DNA of 64,000 nucleotides from Micrococcales bacterium 31B. GTDB taxonomy: Bacteria > Actinomycetota > Actinomycetes > Actinomycetales > Dermabacteraceae. The translations under genes and the position numbers were made by a program. Where the stretch lies: contig JAFFTF010000005.1 of assembly GCA_022803075.1 (NCBI GenBank), positions 290,278 to 354,277 of the forward strand, read 5' to 3'. Shown in pieces: positions 8,880 through 59,078 of the stretch; positions within the stretch are counted from its first letter, which is position 1, and every line of letters starts with the position of its first letter. The notes beneath the pieces were generated by a model. That model ran no database searches and was not told the origin of the DNA. It worked only from the letters and a program-made list of their open reading frames with translations.

Positions 8880-8930
8880 GGTGGTGCACTCTTCTTTACT
8901 GTTGAATAACTCGGATGAGGTGATGGAGGG

Positions 8931-9953: not shown

Positions 9954-9980
9954 TGTGCCTCCCTCACGAGCCCGGTTGAT

Positions 9981-10007
9981 TTAGCACTCTCCATAATAGA
10001 CTGCTAA
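9981..10007. promoter_or_regulatory. CIRCE operator upstream of hrcA
   Basis: The sequence TTAGCACTC (9981-9989), a 9-base spacer and GACTGCTAA (9999-10007) matches the CIRCE consensus TTAGCACTC-N9-GAGTGCTAA with one mismatch in the right arm. It sits 28 bp upstream of the hrcA GTG and 95 bp upstream of the divergent DUF3097 start, so it could affect both, but HrcA autoregulation is the established role. Confidence 0.88.
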
Positions 10008-10101
10008 TGCGCCGGTGGCGGTCAGCGTTCGCTGGCGGCACGAAACTGGTCGCACAGCGCGCCCCCACCGCACGGGGCCGCCCCCGCGTTACCGTGGTGG
10101 C

Positions 10102-10995: not shown

Positions 10996-11144
10996 TTCAT
11001 CTTTCGACGCGCAATTTACGCTTAGTAGTTATGCATTACGAGTAGTAATTATTGGTCGAGGTTGAGTTGCCGCTGACTTGAAGCTGCGTTACTCATTTTC
11101 CTCCGACACGCGCAACGCCCCGGCGTTTCGTCGACAGGACCATC

Positions 11145-12579: not shown

Positions 12580-12616
12580 GGGGGGTCTGAGGGGGCGGTC
12601 AGCGCGTGCGCGTCGA

Positions 12617-13954
12617 CTACTGCGCGCGCTGCAAGATGTCGCGCACGAAATCGGTGCGCTTGGCGCCGCGCAGCGCCGTCGTGGCCACCATGCACAGCCA
12701 CACCGGATACGTGATCACCGTGCTGAGCAACGAGAAGCCGAGCGCGACTGCCATGCCCGCACCCAGGCCACCGGCCATGGCGACGCCGCCGCCGATGAGC
12801 GCGCCGAGCACTCCGAAGCCCACGAGACCACCGATGACGAGTACGGCGAACCACATCAGGAGGCCCAGCACCGAGGCCATGTTGCCGACCGCCACCGAGA
12901 ACGGGCGCGTGAAGGCGCGGCGCAGGCCAAGACCTTCGGCGACGATCAGGTAGCCGGCAAAGATCATGAACAAACTGTAGATCGTCGACAGCGTCTGCAG
13001 GCTCGTGAAGAGTTGCAGCAACACATTGACGAGGCCGATCACCGTGATCGGGACGGCAAACTTGAACGTCAACATCTCACGCATCGTCACGCTGCCCACG
13101 CGGGCGAGGCTCACGAGACCGTTCGTGAACGGAATCGAACCGATCACGAGCAACAGCGACGAGAGCATCATTTGCATGGCCGAGGGTGCGACGGCGAGCA
13201 GGTCTTCTACGAGCGTTGTCTGCATCTCGATGGAGTCCGTTGCCGCCGCCAGGTTGGTCTGCGTCATCGTGTCGATCATGTTGGGGACCGACAGCGCAAT
13301 CGGCAGATTCGGTAGGGCCACGAAGAGCAGAAACGCAATAGTCAGGGGCCCAGCGGCACGCCGCCACAGGCCCCAGCCGCGACCCCACATGGCACCCAAC
13401 GTGTTCAGGCCGAGCCAGTTATTGGCGGCGGTGGGCCGCACCGGGGCGGGGCGCTGCGGGTCCGGCTGGTACCAGGGGGCGTCCATGAGGCCCGCCTCGA
13501 CATCGTCGACGGCACCCGTGCGAGGGCCGACCCGCAGGTACTCCGGCGGCAGGGCGTCCGAATACGGGTGCTGCAACGTGGGCTCGCGGTGCGGCCCGGG
13601 CCCGCCCGGCGCTCCGGGAAACTGACCCTGGGGCTGCTGGGGCTGTTGGGGCTGCTGGGGCTGTTGCCCTTGCTGGGGGGTTTGGCCTTGCTGAGGGGTT
13701 TGCCCTTGCTGAGGGGTTTGCCCTTGCTGAGGGGTTTGCCCTTGCTGGGGGGTCTGCCCATGATGAGGGGTTTGGCCGCCATCACGCGCCGCCGCCTCGC
13801 GCGAGGAGTCACCCGCGCCGTCACCCGCGTCTCCCCCCATGCCCTCGGGGGCTGGCAGGCCGTACATACCCGCGTACGGGTTCGGCCTACGCCTCGGCGT
13901 CGAGTCGGGCTGCGAAGGCTCCCCTGGCTGCCCGTACTCCGGATGATTCGACAT
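12617..13954 (-). CDS. Multi-pass membrane protein with Gln/Pro repeat N-terminal tail
   Basis: A 445-residue protein of unknown function. Residues 1-160 are hydrophilic and disordered: NPYAGMYGLPAPEG, then about six GQTPQQ hexapeptides and a (QQP)n tract near residues 60-105, ending at ALPPEYLRVGPR. From residue ~175 there are about six hydrophobic segments (PLTIAFLLFVALPNLPIAL, MQMMLSSLLLVIGSIPF, LTFKFAVPITVIGLVNVLL, TLSTIYSLFMIFAGYLIVAEG, VLGLLMWFAVLVIGGLVGFG and others). The pattern resembles actinobacterial YckC/DUF7847-like or glycerophosphodiesterase membrane-domain proteins, but no catalytic motif is visible. It is 80 bp downstream of hemW on the same strand and may be cotranscribed. 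Confidence 0.8.
   Translation of the reverse strand: MSNHPEYGQPGEPSQPDSTPRRRPNPYAGMYGLPAPEGMGGDAGDGAGDSSREAAARDGGQTPHHGQTPQQGQTPQQGQTPQQGQTPQQGQTPQQGQQPQQPQQPQQPQGQFPGAPGGPGPHREPTLQHPYSDALPPEYLRVGPRTGAVDDVEAGLMDAPWYQPDPQRPAPVRPTAANNWLGLNTLGAMWGRGWGLWRRAAGPLTIAFLLFVALPNLPIALSVPNMIDTMTQTNLAAATDSIEMQTTLVEDLLAVAPSAMQMMLSSLLLVIGSIPFTNGLVSLARVGSVTMREMLTFKFAVPITVIGLVNVLLQLFTSLQTLSTIYSLFMIFAGYLIVAEGLGLRRAFTRPFSVAVGNMASVLGLLMWFAVLVIGGLVGFGVLGALIGGGVAMAGGLGAGMAVALGFSLLSTVITYPVWLCMVATTALRGAKRTDFVRDILQRAQ
13665..13770. repeat. 18-bp tandem repeat encoding GQTPQQ
   Basis: About six copies of an 18-bp unit (core CCTTGCTGAGGGGTTTG on the plus strand) lie in frame inside the membrane-protein gene, next to a degenerate CTG-rich triplet tract (13625-13665) encoding Gln-Gln-Pro. 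Copies are nearly identical, which suggests recent expansion by slippage or unequal exchange. Confidence 0.9.
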
Positions 13955-14035
13955 GTCGACCCTTCTCTACTTAACACTTCACTGGGTACAACGCAGCACG
14001 GCCGCAAAAGTTCGCGAGCCGCCGCGGCGGCGCCC

Positions 14036-15250
14036 CTACACGATATCCCGGACGATCGCGTCGGCCAGTAGCCGGCCGCGCCCGGTCAGCACCACGCGCC
14101 CCGCGAGGAGGGCGCGACCGTCGACGCAGCCGTCGGCCACGTGCACCGCGAGACGCTGGCGACCAGCAGAACTCAGCACCAAGGCGTCCAGACCCTCGCG
14201 CAGGCGAATACCCAGCAGCACCCGCTCGAGGTGCTGCGCCTCGGCGTCCAGCACCTCGCCGTCCGCGATGGGCAGGGTGCCCTGGGCGAGGGCCTGCGCA
14301 TAGGTCGACGGATGCTTCACGTTCCAAAACCGCGAACCACCCACGTGCGAGTGCGCTCCCGGCCCCACGCCCCACCACTGCACATTGCGCCAGTACGCGA
14401 GGTTGTGCCGGCAGCGCGTCGACTCCCCACGCGACCAGTTTGAAATCTCATACCAGTCGTAACCCGCCTCGCCCAGCAGGGCATCGGCCAGTTCGTACTT
14501 GGCGGCCTGGTCGTCCAGGTCGGGCAGCGAGATGACGCCCTGCCGTACCTGCCGCGCCAGGCGCGTGCCGGGCTCCACCACGAGCGCGTACGCGCTCACG
14601 TGGTCGGGTTCGAGGTCGATAACCTCGCGCAGCGAGGCCCGCCAATCGTCGAGCGACTCCCCCGGCGTGCCGTAGATCAGGTCGAGGCTCACCTGCATTC
14701 CCAGGGCCTTCGCCTGCCGCACCGCCTCGGCAACGCGCCGCGGATCGTGCGTGCGCTCGAGCGTCGCCAGCACGTGCGGCACCGCGGACTGCATGCCCAG
14801 CGAGACGCGCGTGAACCCGCCTCGCGCGAGGGCCTCCAGGTACTCGGCGTCGACGCTATCGGGGTTCGCCTCGGTCGTCACCTCGGCGCCCGCAGCGAGC
14901 CCGAAGTGCGTGCGCACGCCCTCCAGCATGGTCACGAGGTCGGCGGCCGGCAGCAGCGTCGGCGTGCCGCCGCCGAAAAAAACCGTGGACGCCGGGGCCA
15001 CCGGGCCTCCGGAGCGTCCGGCACCCACGTGGCCCGCCGCGAGCCGCATCTCGGCCACGGCATGCGCCGCATATTCAAGCCGCGAACCGCCCCCGCCCAG
15101 CTCGGCCGCGGTGTACGTGTTGAAGTCGCAATACCCGCAGCGCACGGCGCAAAAGGGTACATGCAGGTACACGCTGAAGGGGTACGCGCTCGGCGCGGGC
15201 ACTTCAAACTCGGGGTTCACGCCGCGGGGCGTGGCGAGCAGCTGCGTCAC
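14036..15250 (-). CDS. hemW: Radical SAM heme chaperone HemW
   Basis: HemW (formerly called oxygen-independent coproporphyrinogen oxidase-like) is a radical SAM protein that delivers heme to target proteins. The [4Fe-4S] motif is [18 protein letters not shown] near residue 35, the CxxxCxxC signature followed by Phe and Asn as in Hem[12 protein letters not shown] and [21 protein letters not shown] are characteristic radical SAM strands, and [18 protein letters not shown] lies further on. Length is 404 residues, normal. It starts with a GTG that overlaps the lepA stop (GTGA). Confidence 0.96.
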
Positions 15251-29693: not shown

Positions 29694-30536
29694 CTACTGC
29701 AGACGTTGAATTTTCACCGAAACGTCGAGAGTCGAGCGGCCCGAGGTGGCCACCACTCCCCTCATGGGCGCCACGTCCGCATAGTCGCGACCCTGCCCGA
29801 TCTGCACGTGAAACTCACCCACCGGCGCCGCGTTGGTGGGGTCGTAACCGCGCCACGCTCCGTCCCACCACTCCAACCACGCGTGCGACTGCCCCGCGAT
29901 GGTCGCGCCCATCTCGGCGTCGGTGTCGGGGTGCACATAGCCGGAGACATAGCGCGCGGGGATCCCGATGCCACGCAGCATCGCGATGCCGATGTGCGCC
30001 ATGTCCTGACAGACGCCCTTCTTCTCGGCCCACGCCTCCGCCGCGGAGGTGTGCACCCCCGTGGCGCCCGGAACGTATTCAATCTTCTCGCGCAGCGCCG
30101 TCAGGATCGCCTCGGCGGCCTCGTGCGGGGTCTTGTCGCCCGCGTGCTCGCGCGTGAACTCGCTGAACTCGGGCACGCACGCGGTGTACTCGGTGGGCAT
30201 CAGATACTCGCCGTAACGGTCGCGCACGGCGGGCTCGCGCAATTGCTCCCAGGTCAGGGGGGCGGTGCCCGCCTCGGGGTCTTCGAACGTCTCAATGCGC
30301 GATGACGCCACCAACTCGAGGGATGAATGCGGCTGGCGCACCTCGAACATCGTGACGGTGGTGCCCCAGTAGTCCACAAACTGATGGGTGTGCGTCGCGG
30401 GCGCTATGGTCAGCCGAGCATGGTGCATCTTCTGCCGTGCCGTGTCGCCCGGCTGCATGCGCGCCTCATTGAGCGACACCTTCACGGGCTCGCTGTAGGT
30501 GATCGTGGTGCGGTGCACGATGTCATAGAGGCTCAT
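29694..30536 (-). CDS. Transglutaminase-like cysteine peptidase family protein
   Basis: A 280-residue protein with an N-terminal bacterial transglutaminase-associated beta domain (MSLYDIVHRTTITYSEPVKVSLNEARMQP) and a transglutaminase-like core. The catalytic triad is visible: Cys in KKGVCQDMAHIGIAMLRGIG, His in GQSHAWLEWWDG and Asp in RGYDPTN. The start was chosen at the ATG that overlaps the alpha-E gene's stop (ATGA). Its family is found with alpha-E and circularly permuted ATP-grasp proteins, a conserved trio thought to make or cleave a peptide or amide tag. The chemistry here is unproven. Confidence 0.92.
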   Translation of the reverse strand: MSLYDIVHRTTITYSEPVKVSLNEARMQPGDTARQKMHHARLTIAPATHTHQFVDYWGTTVTMFEVRQPHSSLELVASSRIETFEDPEAGTAPLTWEQLREPAVRDRYGEYLMPTEYTACVPEFSEFTREHAGDKTPHEAAEAILTALREKIEYVPGATGVHTSAAEAWAEKKGVCQDMAHIGIAMLRGIGIPARYVSGYVHPDTDAEMGATIAGQSHAWLEWWDGAWRGYDPTNAAPVGEFHVQIGQGRDYADVAPMRGVVATSGRSTLDVSVKIQRLQ

Positions 30537-31468
30537 GCTGCCCCTCCCTTCACCCAGCTGGGCGTCTCTTCGCGGGGAAAGTACTTTTGCTGCACGGCCA
30601 CCGACGCATCGTTGCACGATCGTTGAATCTCTCGCATAGACCTGGGTAGATCCTCCAGCACCGCGCGCAGGGGCCGATATTCGATGCTGGCGCGGGCCAG
30701 GCCCAGGGCCCTGCGGGCCGGGTCCGACAGCCCCACCCGGTCCACGACCCCGTCCAGCGCCTGCAGCACGCTCTCCGCCTGCAACAGGGCGAACATGATG
30801 GAGCGCGGGAACAACCGGTCGAGGAGCAGGAACTCAGCCGCCGAGGCGTCCGAAATAACCCCCCGGTACGCTCGCGTAAACGCCTCGTGGGCACCGCAGG
30901 ACCGCAGGAAGGTGGTCCACGAGACGCGGTGGCGCCCCTCCAACCGCGACGATGCGAGCAGGCGTGCCGTCATGTCCACCCGTTCGAGCGCGCGGCCCAG
31001 CACGTAGAAGTTCCACGTGTCGTCGCGGCTCGTCTGCGATTCAATGAGGCCCGACACGATGGCGGAGCGCTCGCGCACCCACATGAAGAAGCCGTGCGTC
31101 TCGGCCTCGGCCACCGCCTCGCGGGGCAGCGTGTTGTAGGTCGTGTTCAGGCACTCCCACAGTTCGGTCGAGATGACCTCGCGGGTGCCGCGAGCGTTCT
31201 CTCGTGCCGCCCGCAGCGACCCTACAATGGAGCCCATCGAATAGCGATCAAACGCGAGGCTATGCAGCAGCAGGCCGCGATTGACCTCAGCGCCCGGCTC
31301 GACCGGCACGCCCATGACGTCCATGAGGTTGCGGCAGACCTGCTCCTCTTCGGAGCCGTGGTCCTCCAGCAGATTCTCCATGTGCACGTCGAGAATGCGT
31401 GCGGTATCGTCGGCGCGCTCGACATAGCGACCCATCCACAACAACGCCTCGGCAATACGGCTCAGCAT
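30533..31468 (-). CDS. Alpha-E domain protein (DUF403)
   Basis: A 311-residue, largely alpha-helical protein of the alpha-E family. The signature MLSRIAEALLWMGRYVERADDTARILDVHM is at the N terminus. Other family segments are FGPR-region equivalents NARGTREVISTELWECLNTTYN, VLGRALERVDMTARLL and FPRSIMFALLQAESVLQAL. The catalytic role is unknown. It overlaps the ATP-grasp gene stop by 7 bp and its own stop overlaps the transglutaminase start, so the three proteins are probably made in fixed proportion. Confidence 0.93.
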   Translation of the reverse strand: MLSRIAEALLWMGRYVERADDTARILDVHMENLLEDHGSEEEQVCRNLMDVMGVPVEPGAEVNRGLLLHSLAFDRYSMGSIVGSLRAARENARGTREVISTELWECLNTTYNTLPREAVAEAETHGFFMWVRERSAIVSGLIESQTSRDDTWNFYVLGRALERVDMTARLLASSRLEGRHRVSWTTFLRSCGAHEAFTRAYRGVISDASAAEFLLLDRLFPRSIMFALLQAESVLQALDGVVDRVGLSDPARRALGLARASIEYRPLRAVLEDLPRSMREIQRSCNDASVAVQQKYFPREETPSWVKGGAA

Positions 31469-33177
31469 GATGCTCCCTTCGTGCCGATACGGCCCTGTTG
31501 CTGTTGTTGCTGCTGTTGTTCGCTCAGTTCGGGGGCAGCGGGAGGTTGTTCCGCGCGGAGCACGGGACCCTCGGACGCGCCGTCGGCCCGTTCCAGCGGC
31601 TGGTTCGCGGGCGCCGCCGGGGTGCCGACAGCCTCTGGCCGCTCCTCCCCCTGGTCAGTGAGCGCGTCGCTCGAGAGGTTGCTCGCCTCCACCACCTTGA
31701 TGAGGCCCGTCGAACTCGACACCTGCACCGCCGTCGGGCGGGCCGCGCCGATCACCCAGGTGTCTTTCGAACCACCGCCCTGCGACGAGTTCACCACCAG
31801 CTGCCCCTCGGGCAGCGCCACGCGAGTGAGCCCACCCGGCAGCACCCACACGTTGTCTCCGTCGTTCACGGCGAAGGGGCGAAGGTCGACGTGGCGGGGC
31901 CGCAGGCGATCTTCAATCAGCGTGGGGATGGTCGAGAGCTGCACGACCGGCTGGGCGATCCAGCCACGGGGGTCGTTCTGCAGCGTCACGCGCAGGGCGT
32001 CGAGTTCCTCGCGGCTCGCGTGCGGACCGATCACGATGCCCTTGCCACCCGAGCCGTCCACGGGCTTAACGACCAGCTCGTCGAGGCGATCGAGCACCTC
32101 GGCGAGCGCCTCGGGCTCTTCGAGGCGCCACGTATCGACGTTGCGCAAAATCGGCTGCTCGTCGAGGTAGTAGCGAATCAGGTCTGGAACGTACGTGTAC
32201 GTGAGCTTATCGTCGGCGACACCGTTGCCGACCGCATTGGCGAGCGTCACGTGGCCCTCGCGCACGGCATTCATGAGGCCCGCGCAGCCCAGCATCGAAT
32301 CGGCCCGGAACGAGACCGGGTCGATGAACTCGTCGTCGACGCGGCGGTAAATCACGTCTACCCGCTGCGGGCCCTTCGTGGTGCGCATGTAGACGCGCCC
32401 GCTGCTGCAAAACAGGTCGCTACCCTGCACGAGTTCGACGCCCATCATGCGCGCGAGCAGCGAATGCTCGAAATACGCCGAGTTGTACATGCCGGGAGTG
32501 AGCACGACGATGGTCGGTTCGTCGACGCCCGACGGCGCGGCCTTGGCGAGTGCCTGGCGCAACCGCAGCGGGTACTCCACGACGGGGCGAATTCGGGTCG
32601 CCGCGAACACCTCGGGGAAGGTCTGCGCCATCGCGCGGCGGTTGGAGAGCACGTAACTCACGCCCGAGGGAACGCGCACGTTGTCTTCGAGCACCCGCCA
32701 ATCGCCGAAGTCGTCACGCACCAGGTCGATACCAGAGACGTGAATGCGCACCCCGTTCTCGGGTTCGATGCCCACGGCCGCGCGATGGAAGTGCGCCGAG
32801 GTGGTGACCAGGGACCGCGGAATGACGCCGTCCGCGATGCAGCGCTGCGGCCCATAGATATCGGAGAGGAACGCCTCGAGGGCCCGCACCCGCTGCGAAA
32901 CGCCGACCTCGATGCTCGCCCATTCTCGAGCGTCCACCACGCGCGGCACGACATCGATGGGGAACGGTCGCTCCTCACCGGCAAAGTCGAACGTCACACC
33001 CTGGGCGAGGTACGTGCGCGCCAGGGCATCGGCGCGCTGACGTAAATCGGCGTTATCGAGGCGCGAGAGGGTTGAGTGCAAGTGGCGGTAACTGGTGCGG
33101 ACCGACTGGTCGTGCGCAATCATTTCGTCGAATGCGACACCTGGGCGGTACTCGCCGAAGATCTCCGTGGCTGACAT
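31462..33177 (-). CDS. Circularly permuted ATP-grasp (type 2) protein
   Basis: A 571-residue predicted carboxylate-amine ligase of the circularly permuted ATP-grasp family (DUF404/DUF407). Motifs include YRPGVAFDEMI at the N terminus, RVPSGVSYVLSNRR near residue 175, VDVIYRRVDDEFIDPVSF, GVADDKLTYTYVPDLIRYYL and the ATP-binding LVVKPVDGSGGKGIVIGPHAS near residue 375. WVLPGGLTRVALPEGQLVVNSSQGGGSKDTWV is the family C-terminal motif. A ~65-residue low-complexity extension ends with a run of eight Gln encoded by CAG/CAA codons. It is the first gene of the trio with alpha-E and transglutaminase proteins. Confidence 0.93.
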   Translation of the reverse strand: MSATEIFGEYRPGVAFDEMIAHDQSVRTSYRHLHSTLSRLDNADLRQRADALARTYLAQGVTFDFAGEERPFPIDVVPRVVDAREWASIEVGVSQRVRALEAFLSDIYGPQRCIADGVIPRSLVTTSAHFHRAAVGIEPENGVRIHVSGIDLVRDDFGDWRVLEDNVRVPSGVSYVLSNRRAMAQTFPEVFAATRIRPVVEYPLRLRQALAKAAPSGVDEPTIVVLTPGMYNSAYFEHSLLARMMGVELVQGSDLFCSSGRVYMRTTKGPQRVDVIYRRVDDEFIDPVSFRADSMLGCAGLMNAVREGHVTLANAVGNGVADDKLTYTYVPDLIRYYLDEQPILRNVDTWRLEEPEALAEVLDRLDELVVKPVDGSGGKGIVIGPHASREELDALRVTLQNDPRGWIAQPVVQLSTIPTLIEDRLRPRHVDLRPFAVNDGDNVWVLPGGLTRVALPEGQLVVNSSQGGGSKDTWVIGAARPTAVQVSSSTGLIKVVEASNLSSDALTDQGEERPEAVGTPAAPANQPLERADGASEGPVLRAEQPPAAPELSEQQQQQQQQGRIGTKGASC

Positions 33178-43586: not shown

Positions 43587-44999
43587 TCACGCGCCGACGG
43601 CAGCGAGGGCCTCGCCCAGGGCTGCCGCGGCCCGCGCCAGGTCGGCGCGGGTCGTGTCACTCCCCCACGAGAATCGTACGGCGCTACGCGCCTCGTCGGT
43701 GCTCACACCACAGGCCAGCAGCACGTGCGAGGGTTCGTCGCGGCCGGCCGCGCACGCCGAGCCGCTCGACGCGATCACGCCGCGGCGCTCCAACTCGAGC
43801 AGAATCGCCTCGCCCGAGAGGCCCGGGAATATAAAGGACGCGTGGGTGGGCAGTCGGCCCCCCGGCCCACTCTCCCCCGGCCCACTCTCCCCCGGCCCAC
43901 TCTCCCCCGGCGCACTCTCCCCCGGCGCACTCTCAGCAGCACCGCCCCCGGCACCGGTCAATCGCGCGCCCGCAGCCAGGCAGGCCGCCAGGGCGTCCGC
44001 AATAAAATGGTCGCGCAGACTCGGGTCGGGGCGGTGCGCGGCGGCGAGGTCGAGGGCCGCCACGAGCCCAACCGCCCCGGCGACGTTGACGGTGCCCGAA
44101 CGGCGGCCGCGCTCCTGACCCCCGCCGTGCAGCACGGGCGACACCCGGGCGCGTGCCCGCACGGCGAGCGCCCCGATGCCCTTCGGCGTGCCGAGTTTAT
44201 GGCCCGAGATCGCAACGGCATCGGCCCCGAGCCCGTCCAGGTCCAGGGCGGGCGCCGACTGCACCGCATCGGTGTGCAGCAGCGCGCCGTGCTCGTGCGC
44301 GATCTCGGCAAGCGCGGCGATGTCGTTCACGCTGCCGATCTCGTTGTTGGCGTGCATCACCGAGACGAGCCTCGTGCGGGCGCCCAGGGCCGCCGCGAGC
44401 GCGGCGGGGTCGAGCGTGCCGTCGCGGCGCACGGGGAGTAACTCGACCGAGGCGCCGCGCGCGGCCAGGGCACGCGCCGTGTCGAGCACCGCCTCGTGCT
44501 CGGCGAGGGTCGTGACGAGCCGAGCGCGCGCAGGGTCGGCGGGGTCGATGAGGCCCTGCAGCGCAAGATTGTCGGACTCCGTGCCGCCGCCCGTGAAGAT
44601 GACCTCGCTCGCTCGAAAACCCAGGTGGGCGGCCACGCGCTCGCGTGCGTCGGCGAGGGCCACGGCGGCGCGTCGGCCCACCTCGTGCACACTCGACGGG
44701 TTGCCAAACTCGGCCGTCAGGTACGGCCACATGGCCTCCAGCACGGCCCGACTCGGCGGCGCGGTCGCGGCGTGATCGAGGTACAGCGGCCCCGCAGGCG
44801 CACCCGCGCCCCCGCCCGTCCGCCCTGTCACGCCCCCGCCCGTCCGCCCTGTCTCGCCCCCGCCCGTCCGCCCTGTCATGCCCGCGCCCGTCCGCCCTGT
44901 CTCGCCCCCGCCCGTCCGCCCTGTCTCGCCCCCGCCCGTCCGCCCTGTCATGCCCGCGCCCGTCCGCCCTGTCTCGCCCCCGCCCGTCCGCCCTGTCAT
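43587..44999 (-). CDS. nadS: Cysteine desulfurase (NifS-like) of the NAD operon, with repeat-extended N terminus
   Basis: PLP-dependent cysteine desulfurase, 470 residues, presumably supplying sulfur for the [4Fe-4S] cluster of NadA, as nadS does in corynebacteria. The enzyme proper starts near residue 71 (LYLDHAATAPPSRAVL). It has TGGGTESDNLAL, HTDAVQSAPALDLDGLGADAVAISGHKLGTPKG (PLP Lys in SGHK) and active Cys in ASSGSACAAG. Residues 2-65 are eight 8-residue units TGRTG(G/A)G(E/M/V/A). A second repeat, five ESxPG units, fills a loop near residue 385. The ATG overlaps the nadC stop (ATGA), and no other good start precedes the enzyme domain, so the repeats are probably translated. Confidence 0.9.
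   Translation of the reverse strand: MTGRTGGGETGRTGAGMTGRTGGGETGRTGGGETGRTGAGMTGRTGGGETGRTGGGVTGRTGGGAGAPAGPLYLDHAATAPPSRAVLEAMWPYLTAEFGNPSSVHEVGRRAAVALADARERVAAHLGFRASEVIFTGGGTESDNLALQGLIDPADPARARLVTTLAEHEAVLDTARALAARGASVELLPVRRDGTLDPAALAAALGARTRLVSVMHANNEIGSVNDIAALAEIAHEHGALLHTDAVQSAPALDLDGLGADAVAISGHKLGTPKGIGALAVRARARVSPVLHGGGQERGRRSGTVNVAGAVGLVAALDLAAAHRPDPSLRDHFIADALAACLAAGARLTGAGGGAAESAPGESAPGESGPGESGPGESGPGGRLPTHASFIFPGLSGEAILLELERRGVIASSGSACAAGRDEPSHVLLACGVSTDEARSAVRFSWGSDTTRADLARAAAALGEALAAVGA
43861..43935. repeat. 15-bp tandem repeat encoding ESxPG in nadS
   Basis: Five near-identical 15-bp units (CCCGGCCCACTCTCC or CCCGGCGCACTCTCC on the plus strand) lie in frame in a loop shortly before the active-site Cys segment. 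Confidence 0.92.
44805..44996. repeat. 24-bp tandem repeat (x8) at the nadS start
   Basis: Eight 24-bp units (core CCCGTCCGCCCTGTC on the plus strand) directly follow the nadS start codon. Some units end in ATG on the coding strand (residues 17 and 41), creating additional in-frame potential starts. Copy-number change would keep the frame. Confidence 0.93.
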
Positions 45000-45898
45000 G
45001 CCCGCGCGAGGTCTTCCGCGCTGCGGCGATGCGGCTGCACCATCTCGCCGACATCGAGACCGAGGTCGAGACTGCGCACGGCATGCGTGAGCGCCCCCAC
45101 CGAGATCAGGTCCACGCCCGTCTCCGCGATCGCGCGCACCGAGTCGAGCGAAACCCCGCCGCTGGCCTCAACCTGGGCGCGCCCGGCGATCAGCTCGACC
45201 CCGCGGCGCAGGTCGGCCAGCGAGAAATTGTCGAGCATGATCGTGTCGGCTCCGCCCGCGAGCACGGGCTCAATCTGCGCGAGCGTATCCACCTCGACCT
45301 CCAGGTGGGTCGTGTGGCCGAGCCGCTGCCGGGCCGTGCGAATCGCCTCTTCGAGGGTCAGCCCCGTCGCGAGCAGCACCGCGAGGTGGTTATCCTTCGC
45401 GAGCACAGCATCAGAGAGTGAGTAGCGATGGTTCGAGCCGCCGCCGCAGCGCACGGCGTGACGCTCGAACGCGCGCAGCCCCGGCGTGGTCTTGCGGGTA
45501 TCGGCAATCCGAGCCCCCGTGCCCTCCACCGCCGCGACGAACCGGGCCGTCTGCGTCGCGATGCCCGAGAGTCGCTGCACGAAATTCAGCGCGATGCGCT
45601 CCCCGCGCAGGATGGCCCGGGCGTCCCCCGCCACCGTGGCGAGCACGGCGTCCGGCTCGAAGGTCTGCCCCTCGGCGCACAGCACCCGCACGTCGAGGCC
45701 CGCGCCGCACTGTGTGAACGCGGAGGCGAGCACGGCCCCGCCGGCGAACACGCCCGGTTCGCGCGCCACGAGCCGCGCCGTGGTTTGAGTGCCCTCGGGG
45801 ATGAAAACGGCGCTCGTGAGGTCACCCCACGGGGCGTCCTCGGCGAGGGCCGCCGCGACGGCCCGATCAATGACCTCAGAGGTGAGCAGAGTATGCAC
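44996..45898 (-). CDS. nadC: Nicotinate-nucleotide pyrophosphorylase (carboxylating), quinolinate phosphoribosyltransferase
   Basis: Converts quinolinate and PRPP to nicotinate mononucleotide, the third step of de novo NAD synthesis. 300 residues. Family motifs: GDLTSAVFIPEG near residue 25, ERIALNFVQRLSGIATQTARFV, ADTRKTTPGLRAFERHAVRCGGGSNHRYSLSDAVLAKDNH in pieces near residue 145-180, EVEVDTLAQIEPVLAGGADTIMLDNF and EASGGVSLDSVRAIAETGVDLISVGALTHAV. Its start lies inside the end of nadB (23-bp overlap) and its stop overlaps the nadS ATG, so nadB-nadC-nadS are tightly coupled. Confidence 0.96.
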   Translation of the reverse strand: MHTLLTSEVIDRAVAAALAEDAPWGDLTSAVFIPEGTQTTARLVAREPGVFAGGAVLASAFTQCGAGLDVRVLCAEGQTFEPDAVLATVAGDARAILRGERIALNFVQRLSGIATQTARFVAAVEGTGARIADTRKTTPGLRAFERHAVRCGGGSNHRYSLSDAVLAKDNHLAVLLATGLTLEEAIRTARQRLGHTTHLEVEVDTLAQIEPVLAGGADTIMLDNFSLADLRRGVELIAGRAQVEASGGVSLDSVRAIAETGVDLISVGALTHAVRSLDLGLDVGEMVQPHRRSAEDLARA

Positions 45899-50596: not shown

Positions 50597-50632
50597 GACG
50601 CCCCGCAACCCTCCCAAGGGTTGCGGGGCGTC
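50597..50632. terminator. Bidirectional terminator hairpin
   Basis: A perfect 16-bp stem (GACGCCCCGCAACCCT / AGGGTTGCGGGGCGTC) with loop CCCA, between the convergent secreted-peptide and helicase genes. No long T run follows. Confidence 0.82.
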
Positions 50633-50680: not shown

Positions 50681-53600
50681 TTATCTGGCTTCCCTGGCCC
50701 CGTGCAGCCGGTCGAAGAACTGCTGGCCAGCGCGGGTCGGCAGCACCGTCTCGTCGCGGCGCTCCACCAAGCCCAGGTCGAGGGCGCGGACGATGGCTTC
50801 ATCGACCGCGGCCGCGGCGCCCGCGCTGCGCGGCGTGATCTTGAAGACCTTGAGGGCCGCTGCGGGGAGGTCGCTCTCGGCGAGGCCCCACGCGCCAAGC
50901 ACCGTGGAGACCACCGACGCGACGAGCTCGCTGGGGTGAATCTGCTCTATGCCGCGCTTGAACTCCGCGCTCGCGGCCCGCGGCGGCACGGGCGCGTCGT
51001 GCGCGGCACCGGCCGCCCACACGAACCCGTGCGCGTCGAGTTGCTCGGGCGAAACCTGACCGATGATCTCCCGCCTGCGCGACTCCACCAGGCGCTGCAC
51101 GCCGAAGCACGCGCCCACCAGTTTCGCGAAGCGCACCTCATGTACGGGGGATTCGACGTCCAGAATCTCCGCGATCACGGCGCGCACGGACTGCGCATTG
51201 CGGGGATGCCGCGCGATGTCCTTGACGCGCGTCGGCCCGCCCCGCACCGTGACCTCGAAGGGAGTGAACTCGGCGCGCGTGGCGTCGCCGCTGCGGTGCA
51301 CCACGGGGCCGGGCTGAACTGCGGGCTCCGAGTCCGGCTGTGAGTCGGGCTCCGAGTCCGGCTGTGAGTCGGGCTCCGAGTCCGGCTGTGAGTCGGTCTC
51401 CGAGTCCGGCTGTGGGTCCGGCTGCGGGTCCGGCTCCGAGCAGGCCTGTGGGTCGAGCTGCGAGTCGGCCTGTGCCCCGGGCTCCGAGTCGGGCCGAGCA
51501 TCCGGCTGGGCACCCTCGACCGCCGCACCCTCGACCGCCGCACCCCCCGCCAGTGCAGCCGCGTGGGCCTCGCGTAAACGGGCCACCACGGCGTCCGGGT
51601 CATTCAACCACTCGGGCAGCCACACGCGCTCGATGCCCGGCCACCCCATGATGCGGCGGAGCACCGCCTCGGGCAGGGCGTCGCGGTCGCCCGTGGTGCG
51701 CCGCGCCGCCCACTCGGGGCCGTCCAGCAACACGCCCACGAGCGGCGCACCGTCGTCGCCGAGCAGGGCGAGGTCCACCCGAAACGACGAGAGACCCACG
51801 TCGGTGGCGACGTCGAGGCCCGCCTCGCGGACGCGTGCCGCGACCTCGTCGCGATGCCGGTCGCGCACGACGTTCACGTGGCCGGAGTCGCGCAGCACGT
51901 CGGCGCCGCCACGCGCCATCTCCAGGTAGGCGCGCAGGTGTTGAACGCCCACCGAACTGGTCTCGGCGGTGCGCAGGTCTTCGGGCTCAAACGAGCAGAA
52001 CAGACGCACGAGCCGCCGAGCGCGCGTGATGGCCACGTTGAGGCGGCGCTCACCGCCCAGATAGTTGAGCGGCCCGAACTGCAACGGCAGGGTGCCGTTC
52101 GCGCGCTTCGAGAACGCCACCGAAAACAAGATCACGTCGCGCTCATCGCCCTGCACGTTCTCGAGGTTCTTCACGAACAGCCCCTCGCCGCCGCGTTGCG
52201 CGAGCGCGTCAAGAATGCGCTCATCCCCCGCGTCGAGCAGCAGCGATTCGATCAGCGAGCGCTGCTGCGCGTTGAACGTCACGATGCCGATCGAGGGCAG
52301 CGCACTCGGCGAGGCCGCGAACAGTCGCTGCACCTCGGCGACGATGGCCCGCGCCTCCTCGGGATTCGTGCGATGACCGGTGCCCGTCTCGCGAATAAAC
52401 GTGCCGTCCACGCGCACAAGATGCACGCCCAGGTCAGCGGCGTGCGGAGGCAGCGCGGCGGGAAAAGAGGCCAGCCGATGGTCGTAATACATGGAATTGC
52501 TGAACGCGATGAGGTCTTCGCTGCGGCTGCGGTAATGCCACGTCAACCAGCGTCGCCGCACGCGCGCCTGCACGGCCTCGGTGAGGATGCTCTCCTCGTC
52601 CGGCACCACCACTCCCTCATCAAACTCCATCGACTCGGCGTCGAACACGGTCTCGCCGAAGCTCGCGGGCGGCATCTGCCGGCTGTCGCCGACGATCACG
52701 GCCGAGCGCGCCCGCCCCAGCGCGCTGATCGAGTCGGCCACGCGAATCTGCGAGGCTTCGTCGAACACCACAATGTCGAAGGTCTGCGACCCGACGGGGA
52801 AGAACCGCGCCACCGAATCGGGGCTCACGAGCACGCACGGCATGATCTGCGTGATGAGGTCGCCGAACTGCTCCATCAGGGCGCGCACCTTGACGCCGCT
52901 GCGCTGCTTGTTGACCTCGCGCTGCAACAGACCGAGGCGACCGCGCGCCGTCTCTGCGGTGAAGGGCCGCGCGCGCAGGATCTCACCCGGCACCGCAGCC
53001 CGCAGGTGACTGCGCAGGGCCTCGAGCGAACCCGTGAACTGACCGACCAACTCGGTGTGCGCTCGCGCATCGAAGCGGGCCGCGCCGAATGCCTGCACCC
53101 GCTCGCGGCCCGAGGCGAGCGCCAGCCCCTGATCGAACGCCGTGACCGCCGCCGCGGGTGGCAGCGCCCCCGTGAGCAGCCGCTCGGCACCCTCGGGCCC
53201 GGTCGCGGCGGCGAGGGCGGACGCGAGGTCCACCAGTTCCAGCCACGCCCCCAGCGATTGCTCCCCGCCCGCGCTGCGCGCCATCTCGGTGCCCTGCCAC
53301 AGCTCGAAGAGCGAGCCCTCACCCACCCAACGCGCGAAGGCCTGCGCACCGTGGGGGCTGAAGCTTTCGAGGTCGAGCAGGGCGCTGTGCACCTCGGCGA
53401 GCGCGCTCACCTCGACGGCATTGAGGGGTTCGAGCGCGGCCCGCAAGCGCCGCACCGCCTCGGGCCCGGTGCCGAGCAGCGCCGTAAAGGGGTGATCGTC
53501 GCCGCGCACGGCGGCGAGGGCGCGCAGGGCCTCCGTTTCGTCGAGCACGTGGCGCTGACTCGCCGAATCGAAGGGGTTCCACCCCGGAATAGCACTGAGG

Positions 53601-56600
53601 TGCAGGCCGGCGGCAAGTTCGGGGGCGAGCGCCAGCATGGTGTCGCGGTCGGCGACCAGGGCCTCCACCAGCGCCGGCAGATCACCCGGCCGCACGTCAA
53701 CGCCCGGCAGCAGGTACTTCGCGACGGGCGCGAACGCCTCCACGAGGCGACGCTTGCGACCAAACCAACTGGACACCTTGGCGGCCGCGACATTGGCATG
53801 CACGAGGTCGAGGGGCAGGTCGAGAACCTGCGTTTGCAGGAGGTCGCGCCACGCTCGTGGCCGCGCGGCAAACTCGCCCACGGTGCTCAGGTACTGGCTG
53901 CAGGCCTCCTCCCAGCGGGGCGTGCCCGCCGCGGCGACGGCCTCGCAGGCGGGTTCCGTGCCCCGGGCCACCGCCAGTAGGGCGGCCAGGTGCCGGGCGG
54001 TGCCAAAGGTGCCCGCGGGCGTCCGAAAAATACTGGGCGAAACCTGTGCGAGGGCCACCGTGACGCGCTGCGCGGCACCCACGATGGCGGCCGGCAGGGC
54101 ACCCGGATACCGCACGAAACCCCATGGGTGCCCCGGTTCGGGGCGGGCCCGGTAGGCCACCTCGTGCAGGCTCGCGAGGCGCGAACGCAGGCCGCGCACC
54201 TGCTCGGAGTCGGCCGCGGCGACCCAGGCCGGGTCCACCGGCAGCGGCTCCGCGGACCCCGCCTGGCCCTCGTAGGCGAGGGCGCGCGTGCGCGAGGAAT
54301 ACAGCGAGAGTCCCGCACCGTTGGTGGCGTGCAGTCCCTGCGCGTAGGCTGCGAGCTGCCCGCGCGCACCGCGCAGGAGTTCCGCCTGCACGTGCAGGTC
54401 GTCGGCATCAAGCTGCACGGTGTGTTCGAGCGCCGCCTTCACCTGGCGGCGCACCGCGGCGGGGTTGGCGTTCTTATCGTGCAGGTCGAGCGCGAAGACG
54501 CCGAGCCCCACCGCCTCGAGGCGCGAGCTCACCACCTCGAGGGCGGCGCGCTTCTCGGCCACGAACAGCACGGTCTTTCCGGTGGCGAGGGCGCGCGTGA
54601 GCAGGTTGGTGATGGTCTGCGACTTGCCGGTGCCGGGAGGGCCCTCCAGCACAAACGAATTGCCCTGCACGGCGGCGGCAATGGCGTCGAGTTGGGACGC
54701 GTCGGCGGGTATCGGGCAGGCGGCATCGAGTTCGTCGAGGTCGGCGGGAGTCGGCTGCGCGGGCGGGGCGGGGTCCTCGAACGGTTCGGTGGGAGTCTCG
54801 ATCAGGTGCCGCACGAGCGGCGCCGCGGCGAGTTGCTCCCAGTGGTCCTCCAGGTCGCGCCACAGTCGATACTTGTCGAACTGCAAGATGGCGAGGTGCG
54901 CTGACTCCTCCACGAAACCGGCGAGGCCGCCCTGCACGAGGGCTACGCGCAGGGCCGCAAACGCCTCCTCCAGGTGCGGGGTCTCCCCCACGAGCGCCGC
55001 CTCAAACTCGGGCACGCGCAGCTTGAACTCGTGCTGCAGCTTCTCGAGCAGGCAGTAGTTGGGCGTGAGGGCATCGGCGGCATCGAGGGTGATGGTGAAG
55101 CGGTCGCGCTCGCCCGACAGGTGGATCGGCACGAGCGCCAGCGGAGACACCAGGTCGCGGCCTTCGAATCTCCAGTGCAACGTGCCGAGCGCGAGATAGA
55201 GATTGTTCGCCCCCGTCTCTTCGTGCACGGTGCGGGCGCGATACGCGAGTTGGCGCAGCGCCCTGATCATCTGGGGGCGCGTGAGGCTCGTGTAGACGCT
55301 CGCGTTCTGGTCGAAGGCTTGGCGGCGAAACTCGGGCGGCAGGTCGAGCACGCTCTCTATGCCGCGCTCGCGTTCGATGCTGCCAAGGTCGTCGGCCGCC
55401 CTGAGGCTCACGCCCCGCTCGGCGGCGAGCCGCTGTTCGAGCGCTACCAGCAGGCCGGGCGCCGTGCCGAGCGTGATTGCTGCCCGCTCCGAGAAATGAA
55501 TGAGGCGATTGCGCAGGCTGAGGTCGAGCAGGGTGTTCTTCCACAGGTGGACGCGCGGGGGCACGTTGGCACGCTCGCCCAGACCCGCGCGGGTGCTGCG
55601 GGTCGCGCCGCCGGGGTCATGGTCGGCGGCGAGGTAGGCTTGCGGCACGTAGTCGCTCACGCTGACGCCACCGGCGGCGTCGCGGGTGACGGCGGGCAGG
55701 GGTAGCACCCCGGAGAGACGCAGTTGGTAAAGGTCGAGCACCGTGTCGGCGGGGGTGGCGCTGAGACCCGGCCCCGCGGCGTCCGGCCCGAGCGTGGTGC
55801 CGCTGAGGTGCGCGGACACGGCGCGGGCATGAAAGTCGCGGTTCGCGAACGCGGCGGCCTTGTCGCGGCGGGTGAGCGCCGTGGTTTCGATGCCGCGCAG
55901 CAGGCCGATGTCGAGCGCATTGCGGAGCATTCCAAGGTCGTCGCCGACCGTGACGCCAAGGCTGGATTCGCGGCGGAAGTAGCACAGTTGCGCGTGACGG
56001 TTCGACAGCACGATGACGGTGTTCAGCGACACCTGTTCGAGCGCGGCGGCGAGCAGCAGCGTCGTGTCGAGACAGGTGCCTACGCGCTGGCCGAGCACCT
56101 CGCTGGGCGTGCGCACTTTCTGCCCGTAGGTGTCCCAGCCGGCGGGCGGGTTCGAGTAGTCGAGGTCGCGGGCACGCAGCGTCTCGTAGATCGCCGCGAC
56201 CACCTGGTCGACGCGCTCGGGATCGGACTGATATCCGCTGGTGGCGCCGCTGCCCGTGTCGCGCGCGAGCCGCTCGCGCGCCTCGGCCAGGACCCCGGCG
56301 AGCGCGGGGTCGTTCGGCATCACGTGCGCCGCGAGCAGTTCGTAGGCTAGGTGGGAGTGCTCGGGGTCGAACAACCACTGGCCGCCCGCGAGCACGTCGA
56401 GGTCGAGAGAGCCGGACGCGAGGGGGGTCGGGTCGGCTGCCTCCCCCGCGGCTGCCGGGGTGGTCGCGTCGAACAGGTGCACATCGAGTCGGCCGGGGCG
56501 GCGCTCTTCGATGGCGGCGAGGCGCGAGGCGTCGAGCCGTACGCGCGGGTCGCGCACGACGCAGTCTCCCGCGGCGCCCGTCGCGAGGTGGGTTTCGAAG

Positions 56601-57949
56601 GGGAGGGTCAGCGCGGTGTCGCGGTCCCTCAGGGTGATGCGCACGCGCACGTCGGTCACGCCCGCGGGGAGGCCGGTCGCGCGCACCTCGTGGACGAGCG
56701 GCACGCGATTGTGAGCCATGGCGTGGTTGACGACCGTCTTGGCGGTGACGGTGAGCGTGACGCCCGACTGGGTGAGGGTGAGGGTCTGGGGCTGCAGGAG
56801 GCCGCCGATGCGGCGGCCCGCGCGGTCGGCGGTCTCGGTGGGGTCGGCGGGCTGCGCGGGGTCGGCGGGCTGCGCGGGGTCGGCGGGCTCGGCAGGCTCG
56901 GTGGGTGTGGCCCGCTCGCCCGGGTCGGCCCCCTCGACGACCTGTCCACCGTGACCGCCGGCCTCAGCACTCGGAACGAGGTCCACGTGCTCAACACCGA
57001 GGTCGCCCCACTCCACGCCGAGTACCTCGGGCCAGGTGTGCGCACCGTCGTGTTCGTCAAAGCGCACGGTCGCCAGCAGCGCCGCCACCGCGGGTATCGC
57101 GTTGTCTGGCGGGGTGCCGCACCGCTCAATCGCGGCGTACACCCCGTCGAGTAGCGCCTCATGGGCCGCGTGTACGGCCGTCACGGAAAGGCCAAGGTAC
57201 CGCGCGAGCGTCCGCGCGTCGTCCGCACTGCCCCGCCCCAGGGTGTCGTCGCACAGGGCACGCGCAATGCACGCGAGATAGTCCACGCTGCGCGCGGGCA
57301 GGTTCGGGTCGACGAGCAGCGTCGCGAACTCGTCGAGCCAGCCGCGCTGCGCGAGCGCCACGTGGCGTCGGGTCACGCCCGGGTCGTGATCAGGGTGCGT
57401 GAACGCGTGCGGCCACTCGACCCGTGCGCTGCGCGAGCATTCCAGGCTCCAGGCCGCGCTCGAATGCAGCGCACGCACGAGCATTTGGCCGATCACGGCG
57501 ACGCCGCGCGCCTCGTCGAGAGCGGTCACGTGCTCCGGCGGCATGACGCCGAGGCGACGCAGCGAGGCGTCGAGCCCCGCCACCGCGAGCTTGTTGATGG
57601 CGTGGGTGCGCACATCGAGCGGCGCGGGCACCTCGACGTCGTAACCGGCCCGCGCGAACTCGGCGTGGAGCGTGCGCTTCACCAGTTCAGCGTCGAAGGC
57701 GAGAATCGCGCGCCCGCGCATCTGGTCCATGAGGGTCGCCGCGGCGTCCGCGAAGGTGGGCGCCGCAGCCTGATCGGCCGCCGTGATGCCGCGCGGCAGG
57801 GGTCGCGACGTGTCGCCGCGCAGCACGCTCGACCATTCCCCTTCGATGCTGCCATCCTGCGCGAGGCCGACGACGGCCACCTCAACGGCGCGATCCTCGG
57901 TCTCGGGCACCAGCCCGGTAGTACGTAGCGTGACGATCGCGTAGTGCAT
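50681..57949 (-). CDS. Giant DUF4011/SF1-helicase/Vsr-like nuclease/DUF3320 fusion protein, probable anti-phage factor
   Basis: A 2422-residue cytoplasmic protein. Domain order: (1) residues 1-160 DnaQ-like exonuclease fold with catalytic DxE replaced (IVTLRTTGL in place of DxETTGL) but FDAELVKRTL and LDEARG retained; (2) helical region and Pro/Ala/Asp repeat linker near 350-370; (3) transglutaminase-like segment near 570-660 with GTCLD (Cys626) and a His in NRHAQL; (4) DUF4011 from ~800 (LWKNTLLDLSLRNRLIHF); (5) SF1 helicase with Walker A EGPPGTGKS (Lys1109), Walker B FDEAS (Asp1730), GDSRQMPP, QGDERDVILFSVAFSK and LNVAITRARR; (6) Vsr/MTES_1575-like nuclease near 2020-2115 with FRVDLAL (Asp2059) and VLLDGPEW (Asp2076), lacking the usual Glu; (7) Asp/Ser/Gln/Pro repeat; (8) DUF3320 near 2250-2310; (9) C-terminal winged-helix-like part. 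Helicase-nuclease proteins of this kind occur in defence islands. Confidence 0.9.
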   Translation of the reverse strand: MHYAIVTLRTTGLVPETEDRAVEVAVVGLAQDGSIEGEWSSVLRGDTSRPLPRGITAADQAAAPTFADAAATLMDQMRGRAILAFDAELVKRTLHAEFARAGYDVEVPAPLDVRTHAINKLAVAGLDASLRRLGVMPPEHVTALDEARGVAVIGQMLVRALHSSAAWSLECSRSARVEWPHAFTHPDHDPGVTRRHVALAQRGWLDEFATLLVDPNLPARSVDYLACIARALCDDTLGRGSADDARTLARYLGLSVTAVHAAHEALLDGVYAAIERCGTPPDNAIPAVAALLATVRFDEHDGAHTWPEVLGVEWGDLGVEHVDLVPSAEAGGHGGQVVEGADPGERATPTEPAEPADPAQPADPAQPADPTETADRAGRRIGGLLQPQTLTLTQSGVTLTVTAKTVVNHAMAHNRVPLVHEVRATGLPAGVTDVRVRITLRDRDTALTLPFETHLATGAAGDCVVRDPRVRLDASRLAAIEERRPGRLDVHLFDATTPAAAGEAADPTPLASGSLDLDVLAGGQWLFDPEHSHLAYELLAAHVMPNDPALAGVLAEARERLARDTGSGATSGYQSDPERVDQVVAAIYETLRARDLDYSNPPAGWDTYGQKVRTPSEVLGQRVGTCLDTTLLLAAALEQVSLNTVIVLSNRHAQLCYFRRESSLGVTVGDDLGMLRNALDIGLLRGIETTALTRRDKAAAFANRDFHARAVSAHLSGTTLGPDAAGPGLSATPADTVLDLYQLRLSGVLPLPAVTRDAAGGVSVSDYVPQAYLAADHDPGGATRSTRAGLGERANVPPRVHLWKNTLLDLSLRNRLIHFSERAAITLGTAPGLLVALEQRLAAERGVSLRAADDLGSIERERGIESVLDLPPEFRRQAFDQNASVYTSLTRPQMIRALRQLAYRARTVHEETGANNLYLALGTLHWRFEGRDLVSPLALVPIHLSGERDRFTITLDAADALTPNYCLLEKLQHEFKLRVPEFEAALVGETPHLEEAFAALRVALVQGGLAGFVEESAHLAILQFDKYRLWRDLEDHWEQLAAAPLVRHLIETPTEPFEDPAPPAQPTPADLDELDAACPIPADASQLDAIAAAVQGNSFVLEGPPGTGKSQTITNLLTRALATGKTVLFVAEKRAALEVVSSRLEAVGLGVFALDLHDKNANPAAVRRQVKAALEHTVQLDADDLHVQAELLRGARGQLAAYAQGLHATNGAGLSLYSSRTRALAYEGQAGSAEPLPVDPAWVAAADSEQVRGLRSRLASLHEVAYRARPEPGHPWGFVRYPGALPAAIVGAAQRVTVALAQVSPSIFRTPAGTFGTARHLAALLAVARGTEPACEAVAAAGTPRWEEACSQYLSTVGEFAARPRAWRDLLQTQVLDLPLDLVHANVAAAKVSSWFGRKRRLVEAFAPVAKYLLPGVDVRPGDLPALVEALVADRDTMLALAPELAAGLHLSAIPGWNPFDSASQRHVLDETEALRALAAVRGDDHPFTALLGTGPEAVRRLRAALEPLNAVEVSALAEVHSALLDLESFSPHGAQAFARWVGEGSLFELWQGTEMARSAGGEQSLGAWLELVDLASALAAATGPEGAERLLTGALPPAAAVTAFDQGLALASGRERVQAFGAARFDARAHTELVGQFTGSLEALRSHLRAAVPGEILRARPFTAETARGRLGLLQREVNKQRSGVKVRALMEQFGDLITQIMPCVLVSPDSVARFFPVGSQTFDIVVFDEASQIRVADSISALGRARSAVIVGDSRQMPPASFGETVFDAESMEFDEGVVVPDEESILTEAVQARVRRRWLTWHYRSRSEDLIAFSNSMYYDHRLASFPAALPPHAADLGVHLVRVDGTFIRETGTGHRTNPEEARAIVAEVQRLFAASPSALPSIGIVTFNAQQRSLIESLLLDAGDERILDALAQRGGEGLFVKNLENVQGDERDVILFSVAFSKRANGTLPLQFGPLNYLGGERRLNVAITRARRLVRLFCSFEPEDLRTAETSSVGVQHLRAYLEMARGGADVLRDSGHVNVVRDRHRDEVAARVREAGLDVATDVGLSSFRVDLALLGDDGAPLVGVLLDGPEWAARRTTGDRDALPEAVLRRIMGWPGIERVWLPEWLNDPDAVVARLREAHAAALAGGAAVEGAAVEGAQPDARPDSEPGAQADSQLDPQACSEPDPQPDPQPDSETDSQPDSEPDSQPDSEPDSQPDSEPAVQPGPVVHRSGDATRAEFTPFEVTVRGGPTRVKDIARHPRNAQSVRAVIAEILDVESPVHEVRFAKLVGACFGVQRLVESRRREIIGQVSPEQLDAHGFVWAAGAAHDAPVPPRAASAEFKRGIEQIHPSELVASVVSTVLGAWGLAESDLPAAALKVFKITPRSAGAAAAVDEAIVRALDLGLVERRDETVLPTRAGQQFFDRLHGAREAR
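51322..51440. repeat. 24-bp tandem repeat encoding DSEPDSQP
   Basis: About four near-identical 24-bp units plus degenerate copies separate the nuclease-like domain from DUF3320 in the giant helicase. They form an acidic flexible linker of some 50 residues. Confidence 0.9.
56840..56900. repeat. 18-bp repeat encoding ADPAQP/AEPADP
   Basis: Two exact and two degenerate 18-bp copies (core GGCGGGCTGCGCGGGGTC) in the linker after the N-terminal exonuclease-like region of the giant helicase. Confidence 0.85.
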
Positions 57950-58022: not shown

Positions 58023-59078
58023 TTAGAACTGTGCCAGCTGCCAGCGCAGGTGTCCCTCGGTGGGTGACTGCACGGGCAGGAACGACGCCTCGCGGAACCG
58101 CCGCGACGCCGCCGTGGCCGACATGAACCCCGCGCCGCCGGCGAGAGAGACCTCGAGTCGGGCCGCCTCGCCCGCGACCAGTGCCGCGTCGAGACGCAGC
58201 TGAATGAGGTCCCGCAGGCCGACCTGATCAGCGAGCGCGAGGGCCCGGCGCAGTCGCTGCACGACGAGCATGACCTTGGCCGCCACCTGCGAATAGGTCT
58301 GCCGCAGGCCCGCGTTGTCACGCTTTTCGACGTTGACTCCGCTGCACTTGACCGACACCTCGGCGAGGCCCGCGCAAAACGCGGTTTGTAGCAGCAGGTA
58401 GGTGGGGCGAAACTCCTCGGCGAACGCCGCGAAGTGCTGATTCAAGATGTTCTCGGCGGGCACCACGGCGTTGCTGAACGTGACGCTCCCCGAGCGGGTG
58501 CCGTTTAGCGCAATGAGGCCGCTCACGTGCCGCACCGCGATGCCGGGCTGCGTGACACGCGCCCACATCGCGACCGTGTCTCCCGTCGTGAGCAACACGG
58601 GGAACACGATCACGGCGTCGCTAAACAGGTTCGAGGCCCAGTCGATGGTGCCCAGCAGGTGCACCTCGCCGCCGCGCACCTCGCCCCGCACGGGCAGGTC
58701 TTCGAGCCCGTCGAGGCCCTTGAGCCCCATCGCCATGGCGTTGGAGCCGATCACCTCGCCCGTGCGCAGCTGTGCGAACACCGCGCGGCCCTCGGCCGAG
58801 AGCCGACTGCGCGCGAACAGGTCGAGCACCACGCGATGCCCCCAGAACGAGAATGCGCTGGAAAGGCACTCACCCGAGACATCCGCGAGCAGCGAGGCGA
58901 TCTCTTCGAGGCCGCTGTTGCCGTGCGGGTCGTGGAGCCGCTGCTCCACGCCCACGTCGAGCAAGCCGTTGCCGCCGAGAAAGGTGAGCCCGGGGCGCAC
59001 GTCGACGCTCTCCTGGTCCAACTGTGGCGCCCGCCGCGCGAAGTATTCGGCGACGGAGGCCATCGAGGGGGTGCTCAC
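58023..59078 (-). CDS. Acyl-CoA dehydrogenase-like flavoprotein
   Basis: A 351-residue protein of the acyl-CoA dehydrogenase superfamily. The N-terminal helical domain includes DPHGNSGLEEIASLLADVSGECLSSAFSFWGHR. The middle beta domain begins GSNAMAMGLKGLDGL and contains VHLLGTIDWASNLFSDAVIVFPVL and GSVTFSNAVVPAENIL, the standard flavin/substrate-binding strands. The C-terminal helical domain ends SPTEGHLRWQLAQF. It is slightly shorter than usual. It starts with GTG 3 bp after metF and is the last gene of the metE-metF unit; a role in sulfur or methionine metabolism is inferred only from that. A desulfurisation-type monooxygenase of the same fold is an alternative. Confidence 0.85.
   Translation of the reverse strand: MSTPSMASVAEYFARRAPQLDQESVDVRPGLTFLGGNGLLDVGVEQRLHDPHGNSGLEEIASLLADVSGECLSSAFSFWGHRVVLDLFARSRLSAEGRAVFAQLRTGEVIGSNAMAMGLKGLDGLEDLPVRGEVRGGEVHLLGTIDWASNLFSDAVIVFPVLLTTGDTVAMWARVTQPGIAVRHVSGLIALNGTRSGSVTFSNAVVPAENILNQHFAAFAEEFRPTYLLLQTAFCAGLAEVSVKCSGVNVEKRDNAGLRQTYSQVAAKVMLVVQRLRRALALADQVGLRDLIQLRLDAALVAGEAARLEVSLAGGAGFMSATAASRRFREASFLPVQSPTEGHLRWQLAQF

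Follow-up and report, generated by a model that had tools for sequence, protein, structure and literature searches.

A ProA-type helicase-nuclease of Micrococcales bacterium 31B with a DnaQ–TerB-like N-terminal module that lacks its catalytic residues

At positions 50681–57949 (minus strand) of the window, by which we mean the whole 64,000-nucleotide stretch of Micrococcales bacterium 31B DNA analysed here, lies a gene for a 2422-amino-acid protein that the first-pass annotation described as a helicase-nuclease resembling single-gene defence proteins of this kind, with exonuclease and transglutaminase-like segments fused at its N terminus. We asked which parts of this protein set it apart from its relatives, and what these parts could be doing. 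The gene is a single open frame with an ATG start and a likely ribosome-binding stretch just before it, and third-position GC is 0.86–0.91 in all its segments, which indicates that it is coding throughout, with normal codon-position bias. It is present as one full-length copy in the host assembly (100% match). A 351-amino-acid ORF (58023–59078, minus strand) ends 73 bp upstream, followed further upstream on the same strand by metF and metE, giving the order metE–metF–351-aa ORF–2422-aa gene. The gene that we take to be metE was named from its sequence, and the 351-aa ORF, which matches no Pfam family at E 0.001, is presumably a relative of acyl-CoA dehydrogenases. The stop codon is followed by a perfect hairpin of 15 bp that has no T tract (50597–50632, minus strand; position read off the sequence). 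This hairpin was not listed by our promoter and terminator pattern scan, in which the number of terminators was not above that of shuffled sequences. The 64 kb showed no other defence-type gene, based on Pfam searches of four other window proteins and on the ORF starts for the rest. Elsewhere in the window, 24/72-bp tandem repeats at 44807–45007 (72-bp unit, 98% match) give a presumably cysteine-desulfurase-like protein an N-terminal Thr-Gly-Arg-Thr-Gly-Gly-Gly repeat, and three adjoining ORFs at 29694–33177 (minus strand) have starts that we take to resemble a transglutaminase-like, alpha-E and circularly permuted ATP-grasp operon.

Over most of its length the protein is unremarkable, a divergent representative of a known group that we refer to as ProA-type. 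The NCBIfam model for 'anti-phage protein ProA' (NF058533) aligns over positions 1–1901 of its 1903 with residues 408–2371 and scores 1445.4 bits, 55 bits short of the curated equivalog cut-off of 1500, while the relatives L069, L067, L035 and L043 score 1732–1774 bits. The PADLOC model PDC-S37 matches with 829 bits, and Hhe (NF042953) gives 549.8 bits, below its curated cut-off of 2000. The anti-phage name of ProA comes solely from the NCBIfam entry, and a literature search turned up no publication that treats 'ProA' as anti-phage or that deals with PDC-S37 or the second PADLOC candidate discussed below, PDC-S48. As judged from the profile alignment, only residues 1–407 are extra relative to the ProA model.

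The DUF4011, SF1 helicase and Vsr-like motifs initially noted in the chain were all found by Pfam above the cut-offs. These correspond to DUF4011 at residues 807–971 (55037–55531; this and all following coordinates of the gene are on the minus strand), an AAA_11/AAA_12 helicase at residues 1083–1985 (51995–54703), aligned with its kin at Walker A K1109 and at D1730/E1731 of the DEAS motif, and an MTES_1575 (Vsr-like) nuclease at residues 2034–2128 (51566–51850), aligned at D2059 and D2076. The fourth motif, DUF3320, was detected only below threshold (21.5 bits; cut-off 25), in a C-terminal DUF3320/wHTH region (residues 2225–2422; 50684–51277) that BLAST (E 1e-3) matches to 22 of 28 relatives. 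A Pro/Asp/Ser/Gln repeat linker (residues 2141–2224; 51278–51529), with 12/24-bp tandem repeats at 51322–51492, separates this region from the nuclease. The core motifs (Walker, DEAS, D2059/D2076 and C626/H652) are intact, in support of membership in a defence-type family of single-gene helicase-nucleases. The Leu that stands in place of a Glu before the second nuclease Asp had been regarded as unusual, and an altered or lost nuclease chemistry had been proposed from it. Of the 101 aligned relatives that have a residue at the position of Leu2075, 99 have Leu; the motif is therefore normal for the family and gives no sign of altered chemistry. For this motif alignment, L154 and L162–L164 were left out and identical rows were merged, from 122 to 114.

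The conserved ProA core starts with an Ig-like beta sandwich (residues 394–522; 56384–56770), followed by a transglutaminase-like domain (residues 528–743; 55721–56368) with C626, H652 and D671. The Cys/His segment recognised in the first pass is thus real. The AlphaFold model of residues 394–797 (pLDDT 85) shows the sandwich and then a transglutaminase fold, with best VIA-align Z scores of 10.0 to yeast PNGase and 8.8 to human TG3, values of 8–10 being moderate; Foldseek alone gave no match under E 0.001 for this model, and Pfam DUF553 was sub-threshold. C626 is present in 96 and H652 in 108 of the 113 aligned rows with a residue there. We also observed that the Cys626 position is Pro in 13 of the 113 ProA-type rows, in which the domain is probably non-catalytic. 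A recent fusion of this domain, which the first pass had taken as an addition to the chain, is ruled out, since it belongs to the standard architecture: it lies within the ProA model, and HEPN–transglutaminase–SF1–Vsr–wHTH giant proteins, MTES_1575 included, are described in the available part of Anantharaman et al (2013; PMC3710099).

The part that is extra, in front of this core, is a DnaQ–TerB-like module. Residues 1–173 (57431–57949) have a DnaQ/DEDDh 3′–5′ exonuclease fold, supported by profiles, an AlphaFold model and alignment. PDC-S48 matches residues 2–274 (149 bits; model positions 5–281 of 411), and the DEDDh exonuclease model PRK06063 matches residues 2–188. The model, with pLDDT mostly above 85 over residues 1–110, superimposes best on the exonuclease of Staphylococcus aureus DinG (8zef; Z 19.5, 171 residues, rmsd 2.7) and also on Pol III epsilon (Z 18.9), and structure prediction therefore recovers both folds suspected in the N-terminal regions, exonuclease and transglutaminase. 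The replacement of the first DxE was confirmed (VTLRTTG, compared with VDxETTG in kin), and the loss goes further: at positions 7, 9, 90, 141 and 146, where kin have D, E, D, H and D, the protein has T, R, V, V and E, so that all five catalytic residues are replaced. The pattern D, E, D/E, H, D is kept in 17 of 19 aligned rows, the exceptions being this protein and a stand-alone DEDDh–TerB paralogue of its own genome, in which two of the five are lost (D to G and D to T). The paralogue (L063, 10992–11954, plus strand) lies about 75 kb away, behind what we take to be a fatty-acid synthesis cluster.

A TerB-like helical segment follows at residues 195–296 (57062–57367), as indicated by collinearity with PDC-S48, helices in the model and a DEDDh–TerB alignment; Pfam TerB gave no match. 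Where PDC-S48 proteins have a BRCT domain, there is instead a disordered, low-complexity linker (residues 297–393; 56771–57061) with pLDDT below 50 at 297–387 and 9/18-bp tandem repeats; no BRCT was found there by Pfam, and the PDC-S48 match ends at model position 281. A HEPN profile of our own, which matches 31 relatives, gave no match to the protein. An initial 790-residue alignment that put TerB and BRCT in transglutaminase columns was kept out of the folding.

To place this module, we compared the N termini of ProA-type proteins, using 108 relatives, of which 28 came from 396 genomes of the order (19 of the 47 match places there were not fetched whole) and 80 from a named-species collection (80 of its 208 loci). 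Among the 109 sequences including that of the window (rows not deduplicated), 70 start at the sandwich, 31 carry a HEPN domain, six are unclear and two carry DnaQ. In the one sequence tested, relative L067, the HEPN domain corresponds to Pfam HEPN_Swt1. As relatives have HEPN, DnaQ or nothing at this end, the sequences suggest that the front end of ProA-type proteins is an exchangeable module. The second DnaQ fusion is a protein of Phytoactinopolyspora halophila (L069; NZ_QMIG01000006), in which a full DnaQ–TerB–BRCT module (PDC-S48, 521 bits, positions 11–409 of 411) with intact catalytic DEDDh residues precedes a ProA core scoring above the cut-off (1774 bits). No third fusion was found among the places fetched from a further 394 genomes of the class, where the sole long DnaQ-bearing frame was this same Phytoactinopolyspora gene. 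A DUF4011-type protein, L164, has an N terminus that by eye reads like BRCT.

The two DnaQ fusions are independent. To build the core tree, we removed identical rows and those in which coverage of the core was not nearly complete, which left 96, and from this set 49 rows were hand-picked for the tree and 20 for an approximately unbiased (AU) test. Starred branches of the 49-row tree require two changes for the two DnaQ rows and at least eight for HEPN. A topology holding the DnaQ rows together was rejected on the 20 rows (p-AU 0.000276, without a mixture model), and with it a single origin of the two fusions.

We also found DEDDh–TerB genes beside unfused helicases. Of 119 locus records with an unfused ProA, 7 have such a gene in their flanks. 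This is a raw count without a matched control: some genes were fetched twice, a few records are of other DUF4011 proteins, and 3 of the 7 positives come from Blastococcus-like contigs. In Frigoribacterium faeni (L133), a DEDDh–TerB–BRCT gene lies about 0.1 kb after a HEPN–ProA gene on the same strand, and in Microbacterium sp. CBA3102 (L132) such a gene stands tail to tail with ProA, about 0.15 kb away. Both loci have restriction-type genes near ProA, GmrSD_N in L132 and HSDR_N, about 2 kb away, in L133. In 2 of the 17 fetched DEDDh–TerB loci (L220 and L226; again without a matched control), the DEDDh gene follows 12–31 bp after a non-ProA helicase with an MTES_1575 nuclease. The L226 DnaQ also lacks the first motif and, as read by eye, its TerB–BRCT-like part is a separate gene, the three genes forming a likely operon (8620–15021, minus strand). 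The independent fusions and the operon neighbours link ProA/PDC-S37 and PDC-S48, which are listed separately, as one probable working pair. The stand-alone paralogue of the host genome, having lost two of its five catalytic residues, weakens the case for a pairing with an active partner.

Matches to the protein are patchily distributed: 3 of 47 genomes from the host's bacterial family have one, as do 39 of 396 from the order and 24 of 394 from the class. In none of 121 ProA locus records did metE, metF, the 351-aa ORF, GNAT, nadA or nadB lie beside the gene. A fixed core-genome location is ruled out by the few matches within the bacterial family and this absence of conserved neighbours, and the gene is accessory rather than core. 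Carriage by a prophage or virus was also ruled out: a scan of viral contigs gave five pattern matches with no relative among them, 50,697 phage records gave a single match covering residues 406–693 only, and of 74 plasmid records not one reaches 80% coverage of residues 1–700, the 30 listed of these records matching from residue 397 onward only.

Taken together, we consider it somewhat more probable than not that the gene encodes an accessory, single-gene ProA-type anti-phage helicase-nuclease whose N-terminal slot holds a catalytically dead DnaQ–TerB module used for binding or regulation. By analogy with the family, the putative C-terminal wHTH and the helicase would engage foreign DNA, ATP would drive translocation and the MTES_1575 nuclease would cut DNA, and the transglutaminase-like Cys domain could act as a further effector or scaffold. 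The dead module would descend from a DEDDh–TerB–BRCT partner exonuclease (PDC-S48) working with such helicases, and may bind DNA or RNA ends or a protein instead of acting as a nuclease. The ProA score just under its cut-off, the finding of only two DnaQ fusions and the lack of other defence-type genes among the window proteins looked at count against this. The main rival, a possible reading to which we give a minority weight, is that the module is the decaying remnant of a past fusion, functionless and tolerated because it folds, while an ordinary ProA-type core does the work. The loss of all five catalytic positions and of BRCT fits decay, as does the absence of any N-terminal domain from 70 of the 109 sequences. 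At 2.35 changes per column, the branch of this N-terminal part is very long, which fits both readings, because decay would also lengthen it. Against decay, the N-terminal part is in frame with the rest of the ORF, has normal codon bias (GC3 0.87) and gives a confident DnaQ model, and L226 offers a second, operonic DnaQ without the first motif beside a related helicase.

A function in DNA repair or maintenance rather than defence is unlikely. The housekeeping setting, in tandem behind metE–metF and the 351-aa ORF, would suit it, and DnaQ–helicase fusions such as DinG, the top fold match, occur outside defence, but the patchy distribution, the NCBI family name, the matches of PADLOC candidate families to both halves and the restriction-type genes adjoining ProA in L132 and L133 argue otherwise. 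That the N-terminal domain is still an exonuclease with a rearranged active site is very improbable: the fold is kept and the alignment shows a His one position before the usual catalytic one, but neither the two acidic residues of motif I (D and E) nor the Asp of motif II is retained, with T, R and V in their places. Returning to the binding or regulatory reading, a more specific and rather doubtful version would be that the slot is filled independently by a HEPN RNase or a DEDDh–TerB exonuclease, and that in some lineages the exonuclease has become non-catalytic and serves as an integrated sensor or decoy, binding the nucleic-acid ends of phages or their exonuclease inhibitors and triggering the helicase-nuclease, by analogy with the integrated decoys of plant NLRs.

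In comparison with known systems, the protein shares with ProA/PDC-S37 full-length collinearity over residues 408–2371, including the transglutaminase-like domain, DUF4011, SF1 helicase and MTES_1575 nuclease, and differs in its score (1445 versus 1500 bits) and in 407 extra N-terminal residues outside the model. It resembles PDC-S48 over residues 2–274 and in its DnaQ fold, but lacks the catalytic residues and BRCT and is fused to a helicase-nuclease. The P. halophila protein likewise has a DnaQ–TerB module joined to the front of a ProA core, but with an intact active site, BRCT kept and a separate origin on the core tree. To our knowledge, S. aureus DinG has neither an MTES_1575 nuclease nor a transglutaminase-like domain. 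DinG likewise bears an N-terminal DnaQ-type exonuclease on a helicase, but, according to the available part of its description (8zef; PMC12345164), it is an SF2 helicase and its exonuclease is active. The closest described architecture is that of the MTES_1575-type giants, for which the accessible text of Anantharaman et al (2013; PMC3710099) gives, as here, a transglutaminase domain, then an SF-I helicase and a Vsr-type REase in a single gene without a modification subunit, ending in a wHTH for which the present protein has the sub-threshold DUF3320 candidate, and proposes that the wHTH domains recognise invader DNA and that HEPN is a suicide effector. The present protein has no HEPN and carries a dead DnaQ–TerB-like module in that place. 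What is surprising is that a dead version of the partner exonuclease occupies the place of HEPN, that a second, active-looking fusion arose independently, and that the two defence candidates are paired recurrently; a dead partner copy inside the helicase offers a natural mutant for probing the function of the N-terminal slot.
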